Source: an uncultured Flavobacteriales bacterium (GTDB lineage: Bacteria; Bacteroidota; Bacteroidia; Flavobacteriales_D; CAJJDF01). Taken from it: a stretch of DNA of 44,074 nt. Each line of letters begins with the position of its first letter. Within the stretch, counting starts at the first letter, position 1. A program made the translations under genes and the position numbers. The stretch is from positions 1 to 44,074 of the forward strand of contig CAJJDF010000019.1 in NCBI GenBank assembly GCA_905182785.1, written 5' to 3'. The notes under the pieces were generated by a model. That model was not told the origin of the DNA. It ran no database searches and was given only the letters and a program-made list of their open reading frames with translations. Positions 6,241-35,003 of this stretch are shown here, piece after piece.

Positions 6241-8307
6241 TTGAAACTGATACTTAATTCTCCTTTTTGGTGCATTTTGCTTTGTATTGCAATTGGAGCA
6301 TTAGGTTCTTTTTTATTATATAGAAAAGATAAAAGTTTGGGTGAGTTATCTAGCCTTTGGAAAAAAACATTGGCAGCTTTAAGGTTTCTGAGTATTTCGT
6401 TTTTAGCTTTTTTATTACTAGAACCTTTGTTAGAGTTCTCTAAAGAAAAAATAGAAAAACCAATTCTTGTTCTTGCTAATGATAGTTCAGAATCTATGGT
6501 TTTTTCTAATGATTCTTTACAAGTAAAACAACAACTAAAGCTAGATTTTGAAGAGCTTGAAAAGAAGCTGTCTTCTAAATATGAAGTGGTGAGTTATAGT
6601 TTTGGAGATGAAATCAAAGAAGGTTTTGATTTTGATTTTGACTCAAAAATGACTAATATTTCTAGTTTTTTTAAAGAAATACAAAACAGATATTACAACA
6701 GAAACTTAAGTGGAATTGTGATTGCAACTGACGGAATTTACAATTCTGGAAGTAACCCTTTGTTTGAGACTAAGAAACTAAAGAACATTCCAGTTTATTC
6801 AATTTCAGTTGGTGATACAGCTACAAAAAAAGATGTTTTTATAGATCAAGTTTTACACAATAGACTGGTGTATAGGGGGAGTAAATTCCCTGTAGTGGTA
6901 GAGGTGAAAGCAGAACAATTTAGAGGAAAAAGCTGTTTAGTTAAAATTTCTAAAGGAGGAAAAACTGTAGAGGAAAAGGCAATAAATTTTACAGTTATTT
7001 CTGATCTCAAGCAAGTTTCATTTGAACTGACGGCAGAAGGAAGTGGATTACAGAAATACTCTGTGTCGGTCAGTGAGCTTGATGGAGAATTCTCTACAAA
7101 CAACAATTACAAGAGTTTTTATATAGATGTACTGGAGAGTAAAGAGAAAATATTAATTCTGTCAAATTCACCTCACCCTGACGTAAATGCTGTTAAATTG
7201 GCTTTGGAATCCAATGAAAACTACGAAGTAAAAACAGAGTTGATTTCTGATTTTAAAGGTAAGTTGGAAGAATATAACTTGGTAGTCGCTTTTAGCTTGC
7301 CGTCTGGAGCAAATAAATTAGAGGAAACTAATATTCCGGTTTTGTATATGCTGGGTAATCAGACTGATTTCAATAAATTTAATGCGCTAAAAAAAGGAGT
7401 AGAAGTTTTAAATTCTAAAGGTTTTACTGAATCACAGGTTTATTTCAGTCCTAGTTTTTCTTCTTTTATTGTGAGCCAAGAATTGAACTCATTTGTAACC
7501 TACTTTTCTCCCTTACAAGTTCCTTTTACTACTCAATACAGCCTTAATAATTCTGCAGAAGTTGTTTTATTTCAAAAGATTGGTCCTGTAAAAACAAAAT
7601 ATCCATTGCTAGCTTTTAATAAGACAAATGGCATAAAATATGGATTTTTTATAGGGGAGGGGGTTTGGAGATGGAAATTACAAGATTATTCTTTGAATGA
7701 ATCGAATGAACGGTTCAATGAATTATTTACTCAATCGGCTCAGTATTTAATCTCTAAAGAAGATAAAAGTCTGTTTAGAGTATTTGGCAATAACACTTAC
7801 AAGGAGAATGATAAAATAAAATTTGAAGCAGAAATTTATAATGGTAGTTATGAATTAGTGAATACAAATGAGGTGCAAATGAAAATAATAAATGAACAAA
7901 ATAAAGAGTTTACTTATTTGTTTTCTAAAGAAGGAGAGAGGTATGGATTGGAAGTGGGAGTTCTCCTTGCGGGAAATTACAAATACATTGCATCAACCAA
8001 TCTTAAAGGTAAAAACACAACTCGCTCTGGAGAATTTTCTGTGAATGAGGTTAAATTAGAACAGAATAATTCGGTTGCCAATCATCCATTATTATTTAAT
8101 ATGAGTGATGTAACAGGCGGAAAAATGGTTAGTTTAGAAGAGGTCAATTCTCTTGGAGATTTTATCTTAGAAAATGGAGATGACAGTAATGTGATTTTTC
8201 AAGAAAAAGACATTGATGATTTAATAAACATCAAGTTTATTTTCTTTTTATTACTATCCTTACTAACCATTGAGTGGTTTTTGAGGAAAAAAAATGGAGG
8301 GTATTAA
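6241..8307 (+). CDS. Membrane-anchored vWA-domain protein
   Basis: The 688-residue protein has two N-terminal helices (about 9-27 and 45-61), a large extracytoplasmic region and a C-terminal helix (about 663-682) before a basic tail. The region after helix 2 looks like a von Willebrand A domain. It has a full MIDAS-type DxSxS at 81-85 (DSSES) after a hydrophobic strand (PILVLAN), and ATDG near 161-164 as the later metal-binding loop. About 500 residues of probable beta-sandwich follow. Similar Bacteroidota proteins relate to the BatA/BatB class, but no moxR or batA neighbour is visible, so the role is unassigned. The start is TTG (6241); no in-frame ATG exists before the first helix. The 3-prime end overlaps the convergent response-regulator gene by 4 bases. 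Confidence 0.82.
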   Translation: MKLILNSPFWCILLCIAIGALGSFLLYRKDKSLGELSSLWKKTLAALRFLSISFLAFLLLEPLLEFSKEKIEKPILVLANDSSESMVFSNDSLQVKQQLKLDFEELEKKLSSKYEVVSYSFGDEIKEGFDFDFDSKMTNISSFFKEIQNRYYNRNLSGIVIATDGIYNSGSNPLFETKKLKNIPVYSISVGDTATKKDVFIDQVLHNRLVYRGSKFPVVVEVKAEQFRGKSCLVKISKGGKTVEEKAINFTVISDLKQVSFELTAEGSGLQKYSVSVSELDGEFSTNNNYKSFYIDVLESKEKILILSNSPHPDVNAVKLALESNENYEVKTELISDFKGKLEEYNLVVAFSLPSGANKLEETNIPVLYMLGNQTDFNKFNALKKGVEVLNSKGFTESQVYFSPSFSSFIVSQELNSFVTYFSPLQVPFTTQYSLNNSAEVVLFQKIGPVKTKYPLLAFNKTNGIKYGFFIGEGVWRWKLQDYSLNESNERFNELFTQSAQYLISKEDKSLFRVFGNNTYKENDKIKFEAEIYNGSYELVNTNEVQMKIINEQNKEFTYLFSKEGERYGLEVGVLLAGNYKYIASTNLKGKNTTRSGEFSVNEVKLEQNNSVANHPLLFNMSDVTGGKMVSLEEVNSLGDFILENGDDSNVIFQEKDIDDLINIKFIFFLLLSLLTIEWFLRKKNGGY

Positions 8308-8978
8308 ATTAAGTTATTGTTCATTGCAAACTTTATAAGGCCAGCTGTATTCTTTACATTCAGCTTATTTACAATATTATACCTGTGAGAGTCAATTGTT
8401 CTTCTGCTTAGTTTTAATTTTTTAGCAATTTCGACATTTGTAAATTCATTAGCAATCAATCTCAAAACCTGAATCTCTCTATTGGATAATTCTGCTATTT
8501 TCACCATTGGTTTAGATGAGCTTATAGCTGGATTAATGTCATCTCCTTTGAAATCACCAAGTAGTTTTAAAGCAACTTCATTGCTGTAATATTTATTTCC
8601 ATTTAAAATGGTTTTTATAGCTCTGTTAAGCTCTTCTGATTCAGTGTTTTTTAAAATGTATCCAGAGGCTCCAGATTTTATCATGCTTTTAATTTGGAAC
8701 TCCTCACTGTGCATGGATAGCGCAATTATTTTGTTCTCTCTGGTTTTGTCACTTTTTATTTTTCTTGTAGCTTCAATACCATCCATAATTGGCATATTGA
8801 TATCCATGAATATAAGATCGTAATCAAATAATTCAGCTTTTATTACTGCTTCCTCTCCATTTGAAGCTTCATCCATCCTCTCAAATTCAAAAAGACTATT
8901 GTCTTGCGACAAAGTTATTTTAATTCCTTCTCTTACTAATTTATGATCGTCTGCAATAAGTATCTTTAATTTCTCCAT
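8304..8978 (-). CDS. NarL/LuxR-family response regulator
   Basis: The 224-residue protein has a receiver domain (about 4-125) with the acidic pocket D10/D11, phospho-acceptor D59 in LIFMDINMP, the ALSMHS switch and the GYILKN lysine. After a linker comes a LuxR-type helix-turn-helix (about 160-220, starting LSNREIQVLRLI). It is a DNA-binding transcription regulator. Its start is 2 bases from the stop of the histidine kinase gene, so the two are surely co-translated partners. The divergent promoter region of this operon holds a perfect palindrome (10641-10670) that is a natural candidate for its binding site; that link is inference. Confidence 0.93.
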   Translation of the reverse strand: MEKLKILIADDHKLVREGIKITLSQDNSLFEFERMDEASNGEEAVIKAELFDYDLIFMDINMPIMDGIEATRKIKSDKTRENKIIALSMHSEEFQIKSMIKSGASGYILKNTESEELNRAIKTILNGNKYYSNEVALKLLGDFKGDDINPAISSSKPMVKIAELSNREIQVLRLIANEFTNVEIAKKLKLSRRTIDSHRYNIVNKLNVKNTAGLIKFAMNNNLI

Positions 8979-8980
8979 TT

Positions 8981-10144
8981 TTAATTTATTTTAGGAAACG
9001 TAATTTTAAGTCTAGTCCCTTCGTTTTCTTTACTTGTAAGACTATATTCTCCTTCAAAAGCATTCACCTTCGTTTTTAAGTTGTTTATACCCCTTCCGTC
9101 TGTATTAGGTTTCAATTTTTTAAGATTAAATCCGACACCATCATCTTTTAATTCAATAAAGAAGTTATTATCCCCATTTATTTTGGTTACAATAGTCACG
9201 TTTTTAGCTTTCGAATGCTTGATGGAATTATTAATAAACTCCTGAACTATTCTAAATATTACAATTTCAATTTCAGAGTTAAGGTTGTCAAAGTTACCTT
9301 CTGATTTATAGTGGAATCGAATAATGTTCTGAGAATTTAATTTTTTTACAAACTCAGAAAGAGCAATTTCAATATTTCCCTTTATTAGTACACTCGGCAT
9401 TAAGTTATAGCAGATTTCACGGATATGAGTTATTGCCTCATCTAAGATGTGTTTTGAAGTTTGAATTAATTTATTGAAATTCTGGTCATTTTTTTCTCCG
9501 TATACCTCTAAATTAGTAACCATTAGTTTTGCCATAGCAACTTCTTGAGCAAGTGAATCATGCAGGTCATCCGCCATTCTTTTTTGCTCGTTTTGTTCCG
9601 TTCTTACAATCGTTTGTATAATTTTTTGTTCCGTTTTTTTGGCCTGTGTTATATCTTTTATTTTAATCAAAAAACCTTGTTTGTTATTGACTCTGTCAAT
9701 AATTTTAGAACTAGTTAAAAGACCAATTATTTTAATGTTATTGTAATCAATCTCTGCCTCAAAAGTATAGGAGTTAATAGAAGAGTCTTTTATTCTTTCG
9801 AATTTAGAAAAAGTAGATTTCTTATCGCCAATTATATGATAAATACTTTTTCCTATTACTTCGTTTAGTTCAATGTTAAAAAGGGAACAAACAGAAGAAT
9901 TTATATCCGAAATATTTTGATTGTTATCAAGAATAATAATCAAGTCAGTAACAGCATTGTAGATACTAAAAAAATAGTCTTTAGAGACATTGGTTGCCAT
10001 TAATTCTTCACCCAGCATGTTTATTCCTTGGATGATCATGTCGACTTCGTCTTGCTTTTCCGACAATTTGCCCTTCACAGTATAATTCCCTGCTGCATAT
10101 TCAATAAGTAAGTTACTTAATTCTTCTTCTTGTGATTTTAGCAT
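8981..10144 (-). CDS. Cytoplasmic PAS-domain sensor histidine kinase (HisKA_3 type)
   Basis: The 387-residue protein has no membrane helix. Residues 8-50 resemble a HAMP segment (EYAAGNYTVKGKLSEKQDE), residues 55-170 form a PAS domain (AVTDLIIILDNN...IGKSIYHI), and residues 180-250 a HisKA_3 dimerisation domain with phospho-accepting H195 in MADDLHDSLAQE. The C-terminal HATPase_c domain has the N-box (FINNSIKHSKA) and G-boxes (DDGVGF, GRGINNL). This class pairs with LuxR-type regulators, and the next gene encodes one. A HAMP-like segment without a preceding helix suggests the signal is cytoplasmic or comes from a partner, perhaps the SpoIIAA-like protein encoded 29 bases upstream. Confidence 0.92.
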   Translation of the reverse strand: MLKSQEEELSNLLIEYAAGNYTVKGKLSEKQDEVDMIIQGINMLGEELMATNVSKDYFFSIYNAVTDLIIILDNNQNISDINSSVCSLFNIELNEVIGKSIYHIIGDKKSTFSKFERIKDSSINSYTFEAEIDYNNIKIIGLLTSSKIIDRVNNKQGFLIKIKDITQAKKTEQKIIQTIVRTEQNEQKRMADDLHDSLAQEVAMAKLMVTNLEVYGEKNDQNFNKLIQTSKHILDEAITHIREICYNLMPSVLIKGNIEIALSEFVKKLNSQNIIRFHYKSEGNFDNLNSEIEIVIFRIVQEFINNSIKHSKAKNVTIVTKINGDNNFFIELKDDGVGFNLKKLKPNTDGRGINNLKTKVNAFEGEYSLTSKENEGTRLKITFPKIN

Positions 10145-10173: not shown

Positions 10174-10572
10174 TTATTTTTTTTCAACAAAGTTTTCAAG
10201 CCAATTTATTGCTAGTTTCTTATTCGAAAATATTTTTGTTGGAAAATGAGTAGTTTTATTGGATATTTTTAGAAAGAAATTTATGATGTATTTATTGAAA
10301 GCAGAGTTGGTCTGGAATGCAGCAGCTACAATACCTTCTTTTGATTTACCGTGGCCCATGAATTCGCGTGCTTCTCTATCCATTCCATTTATCCCAATTC
10401 CTTCGTCACAAACCAAAAAAGGATAGGATTTTCCTTTGCAAAAATCAAGTCTAACTTCAACTAATTCCTTAGCTATATCAAGCGTTATTGGTCCTTTTTT
10501 ATAAATAACGATCAATATACCGTCTTGTATTGAGAGGTTTATGAAGTCGGTATTAAAAAATATTTCTGTCAT
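10174..10572 (-). CDS. SpoIIAA/STAS-like small protein (DUF7793-type)
   Basis: This 132-residue soluble protein appears alpha/beta. It opens with short strands (DGILIVIYKKGPITLD) and has a central YPFLVCDEGIGINGMDREAREF block. The second half ends with FPTKIFSNKKLAINWL, where a helix packs on the sheet. This pattern resembles the SpoIIAA-like/CRAL-TRIO-type family common in Bacteroidota and now filed as DUF7793. Such proteins often sit beside cytoplasmic histidine kinases, as here. It is the first gene of the operon with the kinase and response regulator. A role as sensor or anti-sigma-like switch partner is inference; no ligand can be named. Confidence 0.72.
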   Translation of the reverse strand: MTEIFFNTDFINLSIQDGILIVIYKKGPITLDIAKELVEVRLDFCKGKSYPFLVCDEGIGINGMDREAREFMGHGKSKEGIVAAAFQTNSAFNKYIINFFLKISNKTTHFPTKIFSNKKLAINWLENFVEKK

Positions 10573-10640: not shown

Positions 10641-10670
10641 TAAGTATTTATACTTAAGTATAAATACTTA
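10641..10670. promoter_or_regulatory. Perfect 30-base palindrome, candidate operator
   Basis: The left half is TAAGTATTTATACTT and the right half is its exact reverse complement, 15 of 15 bases, with no spacer. Flanking bases 10640 and 10671 do not pair, so the symmetry ends cleanly. It lies between the divergent regulator operon and the PLP/GNAT fusion gene, just upstream of the putative -33 of the former and about 55 bases upstream of the -7 of the latter. No T-run makes it a terminator. A dimeric regulator, perhaps the response regulator at 8304-8978, is the simplest reader. Confidence 0.6.
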
Positions 10671-10724
10671 TTTTTTGCTTTCGAACATAGTTATTTTACT
10701 GTTTCAGCCTTAAGCTTAGTATTA

Positions 10725-10732
10725 TATATTTG
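10725..10732 (+). promoter_or_regulatory. -7 promoter element that fixes the start of the PLP/GNAT fusion gene
   Basis: TATATTTG is an exact TAnnTTTG match. It overlaps an in-frame TTG at 10730 that would otherwise be a possible start. Transcription from this element begins near 10739, so translation must start downstream, at the ATG at 10766. Confidence 0.5.
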
Positions 10733-10765: not shown

Positions 10766-13213
10766 ATGGCAAGATATAAAATTTATGAAACGGTAGAGAA
10801 AATTGTTAAGAACGCAAAACAAAATGGAGTTGCACATTTAACGACAGAGGATAAGAAATTAAATAATAATTCAATTCAAATAAAAGGAGAGAATTATGTT
10901 AATTTTGGTTCATGTAGCTATTTAGGACTAGAGTTCAATGAGAACATAAAGAATGGAGCAAAACAAGCCATTGATGATTATGGTTCCCAGTTCTCTTCCT
11001 CAAGAGCCTATGTCTCTCCTCGTTTCTATGATGAGCTTGAAACAAAGCTTTCGAAAATATTTAACGCTTCTGCTGTCGTGACTCCAACGACTACACTGGG
11101 TCATATTGCTGCAATCCCTGTTTTAGTAGGTCCCAATGATGTCGTAATTTTGGATCATCAAGTTCATAGTTCTGTTCAAACAGCTGTTGCTTTGGTAAAG
11201 GCTAAAGGTGTGAAAGTGGAAATGGTGAGGCACAATAGAATGGACTTATTGGAAGATAAGATAAAAGAATACAAAGGAGAATACGACAACATTTGGTACA
11301 TGGCAGATGGTATTTATTCAATGTATGGTGATGCTGTTCCTTTGGATGAAGTGTTTGCTTTGATGGATAAATACGAACAATTTCGTTTTTATGTAGATGA
11401 TGCTCATGGTATGAGTTGTTACGGAAAACATGGAAGAGGGTATGTATTAGCTGAAAGAGACATCCACAAACAAATGGTTATGGCTACCTCTTTTGCAAAA
11501 GCATTTGCTACAGGTGGCGGAGCATTATTATTCCCTAATGCTGAATTAGCAATGAGTGTGAGAAGTCTTGGTGGACCAATGATTACTTCGGGACCAATGC
11601 AACCCAGTGCATTGGGAGCTGCAATTGCTTCTGCCGATTTTCATTTATCTGAAGAAATTAACGAGTATCAAGAAGAGTTACAAGAGAACATTAAGTACAC
11701 TCACTTGATGTTAAGTAAATATAAATTACCAAACTTAGCGGCAGACTTCTCCCCTATATTCTTTGTAGGAGTTGGCTTGCCAAAAATAGCTTACAGTTTG
11801 GTGAATAAATTAATGAAGGATGGTTTTTTCTTGAATATCGGAATTTTCCCTGCTGTACCTATCAAAAATACAGGGGTAAGATTCACAATCACTAGGCTGC
11901 ATACATTCGAGCAAATTGAAAGCATGGTAAAGTCTATGGCAAGTCATTTTTTAACTGTTTTAAAAGAAGAGGATTTTTCAGTTCAACAAATTTGTCAAGC
12001 TTTTAAAATTGAGGATATTTATTCTGAAAATTTAGAAGGAGAAGCTCTACTAGTAAATGAAAACCAATTGACATTGGAGCATGCCGATACGATATTGGAT
12101 ATTCCGAAGTCTCAATGGGATACTTTATTAGGAAATAGAGGGACGTTTGATTGGAATGGTTTGAATTTACTTGAGAACTCATTTAAAAATAATGAATTGG
12201 ATGAAGAAAATTGGGATTTTGATTATTTAACAATAAAAGATAAAAATGGGAAAGTTGTATTAGCAACATTTTTAACTACGGCCATGACTAAAGACGACAT
12301 GCTTTCGCCAGAAGATATATCTTATGAAATAGAACAAAAAAGAATTAATGACCCTTATTTTTATACGAGCAGAACTCTTCAGGTAGGTTCTTTGTTAACG
12401 GAAGGAAATCATATCTATTTGGATAGAACATCAGAGGACTGGAAACAAGCTATGACTATGTTTTTAACAAAAGTTTCTGAAATTCAGGAAATCAATAATG
12501 CAAATAGCGTAATGATAAGGGATTTATCAATGGTTGATAATGAAATGGATGATTTTATGATTAATAACGGATATTTCAAAATGGAAATGCCAGAAAATAA
12601 TAAAATAGAAAATATGAATTGGACGGATGATTTAAGTTTAAAAGAATCTTTGTCTAAAAGATCAAAAAAACATATAACTCAAGATGTTTTTAGACATAAG
12701 AACAAATTTGACGTTAATGTTATTGAGAACTGCTCAGAAAAAAACATTGAAAAGTACTATGAATTATATTTAAATGTAAAAAGTAATAGTCTAGCTTTAA
12801 ATACTTATAAATTACCTTACGAATTGTTTAGAAAATTTGCGACTAATAAAGATTGGGAGTTTATTACCCTGAGTTTAAAATCAGAGTTCACTTCAGAAGA
12901 AGATAATGAAGCAATAGCAGTCTGCATTTGTCATAAGGGAGAAGAAAACTATTCTTTCTTACTCGTAGGTGTAGATTATGAAACAAATAGAGAACATAAT
13001 ACTTATAGACAAGCAATGTATAGAGTTTTACTAAGAGCAAAAGAGTTAGGGTATGAGAAAGTTGAATTAGGTTATTCAGCTGTTACCGAAAAAAGAAAGT
13101 TTGGTGCAACTCAAACACAATCTTGTGCGTATATGCAAGTAAAAGATAATTATAACATGGAATCTCTTAATGCTTTGAGCATATCAAAGTCTAATAAAAA
13201 CTCAAAAATATGA
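10766..13213 (+). CDS. Fusion of an alpha-oxoamine-synthase-type PLP enzyme with a GNAT/BioF2-like acyltransferase region
   Basis: This 815-residue protein is about twice the usual length of its N-terminal family. Residues 1-400 are a serine palmitoyltransferase/AONS/KBL-type PLP enzyme: SYLGLE, HQVHSS, DGIYSMYGD, VDDAHGMS (cofactor Asp and His) and SFAKAFATGGG with Schiff-base Lys at about 245. Residues 410-800 look like tandem GNAT-type folds as in FemAB or BioF2-like proteins (for example YLTIKDKNGKVVLATF and LRAKELGYEKVELGYS). Alpha-oxoamine synthases join an amino acid to an acyl thioester, the first step of sphingolipid and sulfonolipid synthesis. A fused GNAT could N-acylate that product, as bacterial ceramide synthases do. 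Both substrate and product are inference. The ATG at 10766 is chosen over TTG 10730, which lies in the promoter. It faces a two-component operon across a palindrome. Confidence 0.85.
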   Translation: MARYKIYETVEKIVKNAKQNGVAHLTTEDKKLNNNSIQIKGENYVNFGSCSYLGLEFNENIKNGAKQAIDDYGSQFSSSRAYVSPRFYDELETKLSKIFNASAVVTPTTTLGHIAAIPVLVGPNDVVILDHQVHSSVQTAVALVKAKGVKVEMVRHNRMDLLEDKIKEYKGEYDNIWYMADGIYSMYGDAVPLDEVFALMDKYEQFRFYVDDAHGMSCYGKHGRGYVLAERDIHKQMVMATSFAKAFATGGGALLFPNAELAMSVRSLGGPMITSGPMQPSALGAAIASADFHLSEEINEYQEELQENIKYTHLMLSKYKLPNLAADFSPIFFVGVGLPKIAYSLVNKLMKDGFFLNIGIFPAVPIKNTGVRFTITRLHTFEQIESMVKSMASHFLTVLKEEDFSVQQICQAFKIEDIYSENLEGEALLVNENQLTLEHADTILDIPKSQWDTLLGNRGTFDWNGLNLLENSFKNNELDEENWDFDYLTIKDKNGKVVLATFLTTAMTKDDMLSPEDISYEIEQKRINDPYFYTSRTLQVGSLLTEGNHIYLDRTSEDWKQAMTMFLTKVSEIQEINNANSVMIRDLSMVDNEMDDFMINNGYFKMEMPENNKIENMNWTDDLSLKESLSKRSKKHITQDVFRHKNKFDVNVIENCSEKNIEKYYELYLNVKSNSLALNTYKLPYELFRKFATNKDWEFITLSLKSEFTSEEDNEAIAVCICHKGEENYSFLLVGVDYETNREHNTYRQAMYRVLLRAKELGYEKVELGYSAVTEKRKFGATQTQSCAYMQVKDNYNMESLNALSISKSNKNSKI

Positions 13214-13440
13214 ATTTAACCAAAGAAGAGTTTTCTTTGTTTAATCTCAAATCAAGATTAAAGCTCTTAAAAAAAGACGGGAAGCTTCTGCGGCAAAGAT
13301 ACCCAGGAGAATACATGTTGGTCTCTCTTTATTCTATATATGGATTTCATATAGAAACGATTTATGATGTGGATAATTTTAAAACCTTATCGGTCAATTC
13401 AATTTTGAATCCTGATGTGTATCAATTATATCCACCCTAG
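13210..13440 (+). CDS. Small protein coupled to the PLP/GNAT fusion gene, function unknown
   Basis: The 76-residue protein starts at an ATG that shares bases with the stop of the fusion gene (ATGA overlap), so it is almost certainly translated by coupling. The N-terminal half is basic and helical (SRLKLLKKDGKLLRQR), the centre is hydrophobic and aromatic (YMLVSLYSIYGFHIE) and the end is proline-rich. No known motif or signal peptide is seen. It may be an accessory subunit. Small subunits of eukaryotic serine palmitoyltransferase are a functional parallel only, with no visible sequence link. A strong terminator follows at 13465, so it ends the operon. Confidence 0.75.
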   Translation: MNLTKEEFSLFNLKSRLKLLKKDGKLLRQRYPGEYMLVSLYSIYGFHIETIYDVDNFKTLSVNSILNPDVYQLYPP

Positions 13441-20792: not shown

Positions 20793-22130
20793 TTAATACT
20801 TAGTATAAGTAATGGTTAATTTTGGTTTATTCATCACAGAATTGTGACCAAAAAATACGGCTCTGTTTGGTGTAACCATAGAGGAAACAGTTTCGAGAGT
20901 TAAGTTATTATTTGGAAATTTTCCGTTCAAAATATTGTTTATGTATCTTGTAATTACAAATTCGTATTGGCTATCGTCTTCGTTCCATTCTCCTCCAACA
21001 TTTGCTAATCCAGCTGTTCCAGCAAACATAGTTTGGTCTGGAATTAAAAACTTATTCCCCTCTTCATTTCTTATAACAAGTAACTGAGGATTTGGCTCAA
21101 AAGAACTTCCAGTTGTAAAGTCTACTGGCATAGTTAATACTGCTTTGTTTATAATTATCCCAGAATCTCTTAATCTAAGGATGTCATCAAAGTTCACTTC
21201 AGTTTTTACTCCCTGTAGTCCTTGAATATACACTTCGTTTTGGCCCAAAGTGGAGTCAGAAATCTGAGCATCTACTTGTGTTCCAGTGTAATCATGTTTG
21301 TTTAGGTTTACTCTTGAAGCATAAGTGTTTATCAATAAATCAAATGATGTTGTGTCTTTTGTTGCAGTATCTCTATAGTATAAAGTTACTTTAGAATTGA
21401 CTGATAAAAGGTCAAAAAGTAAAATAGCACCTTCTCCTGTAGCTTGTCCAGGATTATTCGCTTTCACCTCTATTCCCTTCATAAATTGCGCAAAACTTTC
21501 GTTATCCGATAAGGTAGAATTTCCACTTTCGTTAAGGATAGATTGTCCAAAACTGTTATCTAATTTAATTCTTAGTTGTGCAGGAAGTGTATCTCCATTA
21601 GCGTAAACTGTTGAGCTAGGGTCGGGTATTTGTGTTTGTGTTCCAGCTTTAACTAAGTCTGTTCCTAAATTAGTAAAACTCTTCCCGTTATAATAAGCAG
21701 AGTCAATTTCTATGTCTTGTCCTACTTGGAATACTTCAAAAGTTTGTGCATCCAGACTTCCGTAATGATCTTTGTATTCCAATGATAAAACTACCGAGTC
21801 AAGAACAATATTAGTTAGTGGTCCAGCTCCAGAAAAGTTAACATTGTCAACAGGGAGTCTTAATTGTGTAAAAAAACTTGAATTTGTTTTCCCCATAACC
21901 ATGTCGTTCATACTTCCAAGAGTAGAAATTGAGATTTCATCTGCTCTTAAAGAATCAGCTAAAGTAGTATAGGTTTGGATAGTGAAATTGTCTATTTTGG
22001 AAACATTAATGTCTTCGTTTTGAATTTCTGTTCCAATAAAGTTTTCGTCTTTTTTACAATTAAGTATTAAAGCAAATAAGGAAAGCCATATGGCTTTCCT
22101 TATTATATGAGTTGATGAAGTTATATTCAT
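20793..22130 (-). CDS. DUF4270 family lipoprotein
   Basis: The 445-residue protein has a signal peptide with lipobox (AIWLSLFALILNC, Cys at 25). It then follows the Bacteroidota DUF4270 pattern: DNFTIQTYTTLADSL near the start of the mature protein, long beta-rich segments, and a C-terminus with NNILNGKFPNN, APNRAV-like PNRAVFFG and PKLTITYTKY. The family is of unknown function and is typically found beside the truncated glycogen-synthase-like gene, as here (21-base gap). A perfect 30-base palindrome covers codons 10-19. It is an exported lipoprotein, probably in the outer membrane or on the surface. Confidence 0.88.
   Translation of the reverse strand: MNITSSTHIIRKAIWLSLFALILNCKKDENFIGTEIQNEDINVSKIDNFTIQTYTTLADSLRADEISISTLGSMNDMVMGKTNSSFFTQLRLPVDNVNFSGAGPLTNIVLDSVVLSLEYKDHYGSLDAQTFEVFQVGQDIEIDSAYYNGKSFTNLGTDLVKAGTQTQIPDPSSTVYANGDTLPAQLRIKLDNSFGQSILNESGNSTLSDNESFAQFMKGIEVKANNPGQATGEGAILLFDLLSVNSKVTLYYRDTATKDTTSFDLLINTYASRVNLNKHDYTGTQVDAQISDSTLGQNEVYIQGLQGVKTEVNFDDILRLRDSGIIINKAVLTMPVDFTTGSSFEPNPQLLVIRNEEGNKFLIPDQTMFAGTAGLANVGGEWNEDDSQYEFVITRYINNILNGKFPNNNLTLETVSSMVTPNRAVFFGHNSVMNKPKLTITYTKY
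22075..22104 (-). promoter_or_regulatory. Perfect 30-base palindrome inside the DUF4270 signal-peptide codons
   Basis: The half-site AATAAGGAAAGCCAT is followed directly by its exact reverse complement, and symmetry stops at 22074/22105. In the mRNA it covers nucleotides 27-56 of the DUF4270 reading frame and can form a stem of up to 13-14 pairs. It is not followed by a long U-run, so a translation-controlling or attenuating hairpin, or a DNA-binding site, is more likely than an ordinary terminator. Confidence 0.5.
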
Positions 22131-34860: not shown

Positions 34861-34947
34861 TTACAAAATGATATGTTTTGTTTCCATTACTGATAAAAAA
34901 TAAATGCTCTGCATGTTCATTAGATTAAACTGATTGTAATTCCCATT

Positions 34948-34986
34948 AAAAAAGCCTCAATAATCTTAGATTATTGAGGCTTTTTT
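34948..34986. terminator. Strong bidirectional terminator
   Basis: GCCTCAATAATC faces GATTATTGAGGC around a TTA loop, 12 perfect pairs, flanked by A6 on the left and T6 on the right. It serves rny on the minus strand, whose stop is 18 bases away, and the plus-strand genes upstream. Confidence 0.9.
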
Positions 34987-35003
34987 AATTTTAAGTTTAA
35001 TTG

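Follow-up and report, generated by a model that had tools for sequence, protein, structure and literature searches.

A 30-bp palindrome as the probable double operator of a LuxR-type regulator upstream of an oxoamine-synthase fusion gene in Bacteroidota

The analysed window (44,074 nucleotides of contig CAJJDF010000019.1, from an uncultured Flavobacteriales bacterium) harbours two divergently oriented gene groups (Table 1): a DUF7793-kinase-regulator operon on the minus strand and, on the plus strand, the gene of an alpha-oxoamine synthase fused to an acyltransferase-like domain, followed by a small ORF. The nearest structural relatives of the fusion protein were found to be serine palmitoyltransferase and BioF structures. 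Although its N-terminal half matched the serine palmitoyltransferase family NF047600 (5e-51, 173.5 bits), the curated cut-off of that family is 640 bits and the sequence also fell below the cut-offs of related families; hence, we did not assign it to serine palmitoyltransferases. The C-terminal domain was recognised by the Acetyltransf_6 profile in 15 out of 21 fusion homologues (best value 5.8e-10).

A homologue search recovered 80 loci that encode the fusion protein, and in approximately 48 of them (mostly from Bacteroidota) the DUF7793-kinase-regulator operon is placed divergently upstream, while small ORFs (small-ORF families 5 and 6) are found 3' of the fusion gene in approximately 32. 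As both the divergent arrangement and the small downstream ORFs recur across loci, we regard the module as an evolutionary unit. Its distribution is patchy, considering that the three other genomes from this genus yielded neither the fusion gene nor the kinase. The 76-aa ORF, for which no Pfam match was obtained, represents an undescribed fifth gene of the module. We additionally observed an apparently truncated fusion gene (L006:1396-2019, G028), in which residues 2-175 match before the frame diverges and which is adjoined by DUF7793 and kinase genes, as well as full-length fusion homologues lacking an adjacent two-component system outside Bacteroidota (L104, L111 and L114; Mycobacterium asiaticum, Nannocystis).

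Table 1. Genes and putative regulatory elements of the module, with window coordinates.
Feature	Position	Strand	Basis or remark
NarL/FixJ (LuxR_C/GerE) response regulator, presumed operator binder	8304..8978	-	PF00072 5.9e-25, PF00196 8.5e-18
PAS/HisKA_3/HATPase histidine kinase	8981..10144	-	domain matches
DUF7793 protein, first gene of the divergent operon	10174..10572	-	Pfam 9.4e-28; position conserved
Distal operator copy A, TAAGTATTTATACTTA, 7-2-7 inverted repeat (putative)	10641..10656	+	joint best motif match in the window, 18.8 bits
Distal operator copy B (putative), 16-mer of copy A on the opposite strand, 2 bp overlap with copy A	10655..10670	-	motif match
Proximal degenerate operator copy (putative), ACATAGTTATTTTACTGTTT, abutting the -33 position	10685..10704	+	starts exactly 44 bp after the start of copy A, the commonest spacing among relatives
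Predicted -33 position, fusion-gene promoter; reads TTT, where most relatives have TTG	10702..10704	+	aligned with the proximal motif
-7 box of the fusion-gene promoter, TATATTTG (TAnnTTTG)	10725..10732	+	6/6 match, exactly 20 nt past the proximal site
Alpha-oxoamine synthase (residues ~1-395) fused to GNAT/FemAB-like acyltransferase domain, 815 aa, presumed target	10766..13213	+	Pfam Aminotran_1_2 5e-28
76-aa ORF overlapping the fusion-gene stop (ATGA)	13210..13440	+	conserved small downstream gene

The region between the two gene groups contains the palindrome TAAGTATTTATACTTAAGTATAAATACTTA (10641-10670), which is single-copy in the 2.32 Mb genome even when three mismatches are allowed. Its halves (TAAGTATTTATACTT and AAGTATAAATACTTA) pair at 15 of 15 positions without a spacer, just as the initial annotation had read them. 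The positions given there also hold approximately, as promoter-like elements (TTG/TACCTTTA) of the minus strand are separated from the palindrome by about 10 bp, and the -7 box of the plus strand is found 54 bp past its end.

Blind EM on 44 non-redundant intergenic regions (in which the palindrome was not used as a chosen seed) yielded a single motif, TAmGTnTTTAtACkTA, present in approximately 37 of them and supported by a log-likelihood of 235, as compared to 73-81 in six dinucleotide-shuffle controls. By leave-one-out scoring, the intergenic site was the best of the whole locus in 27 of the 44 cases. When the matrix was built from other loci only, copies A and B emerged as the two best sites of the 44 kb window, at 18.8 bits each (the next one reaching 13.7), and since they jointly span the 30 bp, we interpret the palindrome as two 16-bp operators that overlap by 2 bp. 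Each copy reads TAAGTAT-TT-ATACTTA (i.e. two heptamers around a 2-bp spacer) and thus has the inverted-repeat structure of a NarL/FixJ operator. The earlier idea of a 30-base operator is supported as far as the operator is concerned, while its unit is the 16-bp 7-2-7 site; among relatives that keep both operons the motif is retained, but the exact 30 bases are not. The pair of sites with a 14-bp offset was also encountered in L048, in L059 (whose palindrome, TAAGTATTTATACTTAATTATAAATACTTA, has one base different from that of the window) and at G060:C4:43011-43040, whereas in L045, L047 and L053 two sites lie 28 bp apart.

The centre of the distal site is located 114 +/- 13 bp from the ATG of the fusion gene and 98 +/- 109 bp from that of DUF7793 (the distance to the DUF7793 start ranging from 17 to more than 400 bp). 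As the distance is constant to the fusion gene and not to the regulator operon, control of the former is well supported; of the operator shared by divergent promoters that had been proposed initially, the fusion-gene side is therefore upheld, and a conserved position toward both promoters is not. A second blind search, covering the stretch from the distal site to the fusion gene, recovered TmAGTnTTTAATnGGTTG (log-likelihood 215, versus 55-67 in mononucleotide shuffles), which is related to the first motif and at its end runs into the -33 TTG. The spacing between distal and proximal sites has modes at 43-45, 55 and 65 bp (approximately one helical turn apart, with a few cases at 27-31), and in 24 other loci a TAnnTTTG-like -7 box shows a sharp positional peak exactly 20 nt beyond the proximal site. 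In the window, the centre of copy A is situated 76 bp upstream of the -7 box, a distance found to be identical in seven other loci, while the sequence of the proximal copy is by itself a weak match (approximately 0.8% of positions score equally well). In lying ahead of the -33/-35 element of the presumed target promoter or directly next to it, the sites are placed as is expected of NarL/FixJ operators.

Taking 14 bits or more as the threshold for site presence, sites were detected in 33 of the 49 fusion-gene loci where the two-component system lies divergently upstream, as against 2 of the 30 where it does not (p=3e-9, related loci being not fully independent). An operator of a NarL/FixJ regulator should be kept with its regulator and absent without it, and the linked regulator does carry the receiver and GerE/LuxR_C domains of this family. 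The suggestion that the palindrome serves the adjacent LuxR-type regulator is thus strengthened by a motif that is kept in relatives and tracks the presence of the regulator. One of the two exceptions, L091 (the same locus as L005), carries its two-component genes downstream of the fusion gene and co-directional with it, and retains the site before the fusion gene. The other is L064, whose contig begins 231 bp upstream of the fusion gene, leaving the upstream genes out of view.

Most regulators accompanied by canonical sites have the recognition helix T[IV]D[ST]H. The clade with a DNH helix is mostly devoid of the canonical site and often shows TAGTA-N6-TACTA instead, while the group with a G-E-Y helix has degenerate sites. 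A separate EM for the clade with long intergenic regions (L073-L086) recovered only the -7 region, and the TAGTA-N6-TACTA repeat recurs there. It is suggestive that variant helices mostly pair with altered or missing sites, although the clades are not independent events and L070 combines a D-N-H helix with a canonical site.

Judging from the sequence comparisons, we consider it highly likely that the palindrome is a double operator of the linked LuxR-type regulator that activates the fusion-gene promoter, the motif being very probably the switch by which the regulator turns the enzyme gene on. In such a scheme the kinase, upon a presumed signal, would phosphorylate the response regulator, whose dimers would occupy the distal double site (the two overlapping 16-bp 7-2-7 inverted repeats) and also the weaker proximal site immediately beside the -33 box; once bound, the regulator would bring RNA polymerase to the promoter that serves the fusion gene and its small partner. 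We infer activation, rather than repression, from the position of the site only.

The same palindrome might also autoregulate the DUF7793-HK-RR operon, as in the window it lies approximately 10 bp upstream of the minus-strand TTG/TACCTTTA elements (a plausible position for an activator). We lean somewhat against this shared use, given that in about ten loci the site is only 17-46 bp from the DUF7793 start, which leaves too little room for a conserved upstream activator site, and that in L091 it stays before the fusion gene though the two-component genes lie downstream; self-regulation of the operon is possible in this organism, though it is no conserved feature. The binder could in turn be an unlinked regulator (a LuxR-type paralogue or a member of another family), with the neighbouring two-component system being only genetically linked. 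Several module-bearing genomes do carry additional copies of the motif at other genes, and therefore paralogous regulators could also bind it. Nonetheless, we find this explanation unlikely, since the site tracks the presence of the adjacent two-component system, its geometry is that of the NarL family (the linked regulator's own), and the window's genome, searched by exact degenerate-pattern matching, has only this one match to the motif pattern.

Two further readings would deprive the palindrome of any role as a protein-binding site. The run of six T (10671-10676) that directly follows it on the plus strand could point to a transcription terminator or another RNA element; the initial annotation had dismissed a terminator, which the present results support, and had reported no T-run, which is not quite right. 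An intrinsic terminator consists of a G+C-rich hairpin followed by a T-run downstream of a gene, while here no plus-strand gene ends just upstream, the stem is nearly all A/T (almost without G-C pairs), and the terminator scan returned nothing at the palindrome. Together with the lack of a T-run after the near-identical palindrome of L059, the retention in relatives of 16-bp operator-like sites with free middle bases (rather than a 30-bp stem), and the absence of a credible Rfam match for the palindrome, this makes an RNA-level function very improbable. That the palindrome arose by chance would be helped by the A/T-rich surroundings, yet it is scarcely credible: a zero-spacer palindrome of this length has a naive expectation of 2.3e-4 per window, half-lengths of at least 15 were absent from 100 dinucleotide shuffles of the 44 kb window (the longest was 12), and the motif is kept across distant loci, a conservation that already refutes chance.

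As a double operator of the linked regulator, the palindrome appears to belong to the known type of NarL-family 7-2-7 sites. This type is exemplified by the narG site at -89, TACCCCTAAAGGGGTA (PMC4549865), and by the NarL-activated ogt promoter of E. coli, where tandem 7-2-7 sites are centred at -44.5 and -77.5 and one of them abuts the -35 element (PMC7419079). The likeness to the E. coli operators (narG -89, yeaR, ogt) comprises two heptamers that form, with 2 bp between them, a 16-bp inverted repeat with outer TA..TA, the TAC..GTA ends of the consensus TACGTnT-TT-AnACGTA, the linked NarL/FixJ regulator and, as regards ogt, the tandem arrangement in which one site adjoins the -35/-33 element. 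The differences reside in the inner bases (GTnT-TT-AnAC here, YYMT-NN-AKRR there), the Bacteroidota-type -33/-7 promoter, the distal-proximal spacing (approximately 46 bp, with variants of 57 and 67, versus 33 bp at ogt) and the doubling of the window's distal site with a 14-bp offset. A site of the E. coli NarL regulon proper (TACYYMT / AKRRGTA) was considered and set aside: the window has TAAGTAT/ATACTTA and the consensus is TAmGTnT, so that the geometry is alike and the inner bases differ.

The enzyme side of the module has its own parallels. The N-terminal half resembles, by profile, the serine palmitoyltransferase and cysteate-C-fatty acyltransferase of Bacteroidota sphingolipid/sulfonolipid synthesis (PDB 3a2b, 28eh), from which the protein differs by its C-terminal acyltransferase-like fusion and by scores below the family cut-offs. 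In the Legionella lqs and Vibrio cqs loci, the gene of the alpha-oxoamine synthase LqsA/CqsA is found beside a sensor kinase system, and the present module likewise links an alpha-oxoamine synthase gene to a two-component system; among the distant matches of the fusion-protein profile is the CAI-1 synthase structure. Unlike in lqs/cqs, the synthase here carries a fused GNAT/FemAB-like domain, the module additionally includes DUF7793 and a small ORF, and the kinase has PAS/HisKA_3 domains with no receptor domain detected. One may speculate that the five genes constitute a self-contained Bacteroidota signalling circuit analogous to cqs/lqs, in which an acylated amino-ketone lipid made by the fusion enzyme would be sensed by the DUF7793/PAS kinase and the 7-2-7 sites would close the loop, but we hold this to be quite improbable.

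A search of the open literature on DUF7793, the module and the motif found nothing relevant (which is not proof of absence), and neither the module nor its cis-code appears to have been described in the open papers covered. The 7-2-7 sites with their fixed spacing to a -33/-7 promoter provide a concrete and testable cis-regulatory code for a NarL-family regulator of Bacteroidota. Moreover, an uncharacterised oxoamine-synthase/acyltransferase fusion is now linked to a single two-component system across many species, and by virtue of this dedicated association its product and the signal can be sought together.

A genome-wide scan for the half-site, as suggested by the initial annotation, showed no enrichment (23 sites for 16-mers with 2 mismatches, against 36 in the reversed control), and therefore we do not claim a large regulon. 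Elsewhere, a near-identical 30-bp double operator, TAAGTATTTATACCTAGGTGTAAATACTTA, was found approximately 83 bp ahead of an unrelated gene for a secreted protein (L133 / G060:C4:43011-43040), and in two Crocinitomix-like genomes (G035, G062) the motif occurs close to a gene resembling GH25 lysozymes and to a second gene homologous to it (L142 and L144, at ~1500), a candidate further regulon member there. The window holds another perfect 30-bp palindrome without spacer, AATAAGGAAAGCCATATGGCTTTCCTTATT (22075-22104), which falls immediately within the 5' end of a lipoprotein-like ORF (20793-22130, minus strand), approximately 48 bp beyond the point where the upstream gene stops. It is either a terminator, with the start codon misplaced, or a palindrome in coding sequence. 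Lastly, a perfect inverted repeat with 22-bp arms and a 1-nt spacer (34945-34989) is situated between converging genes and looks like a bidirectional terminator.
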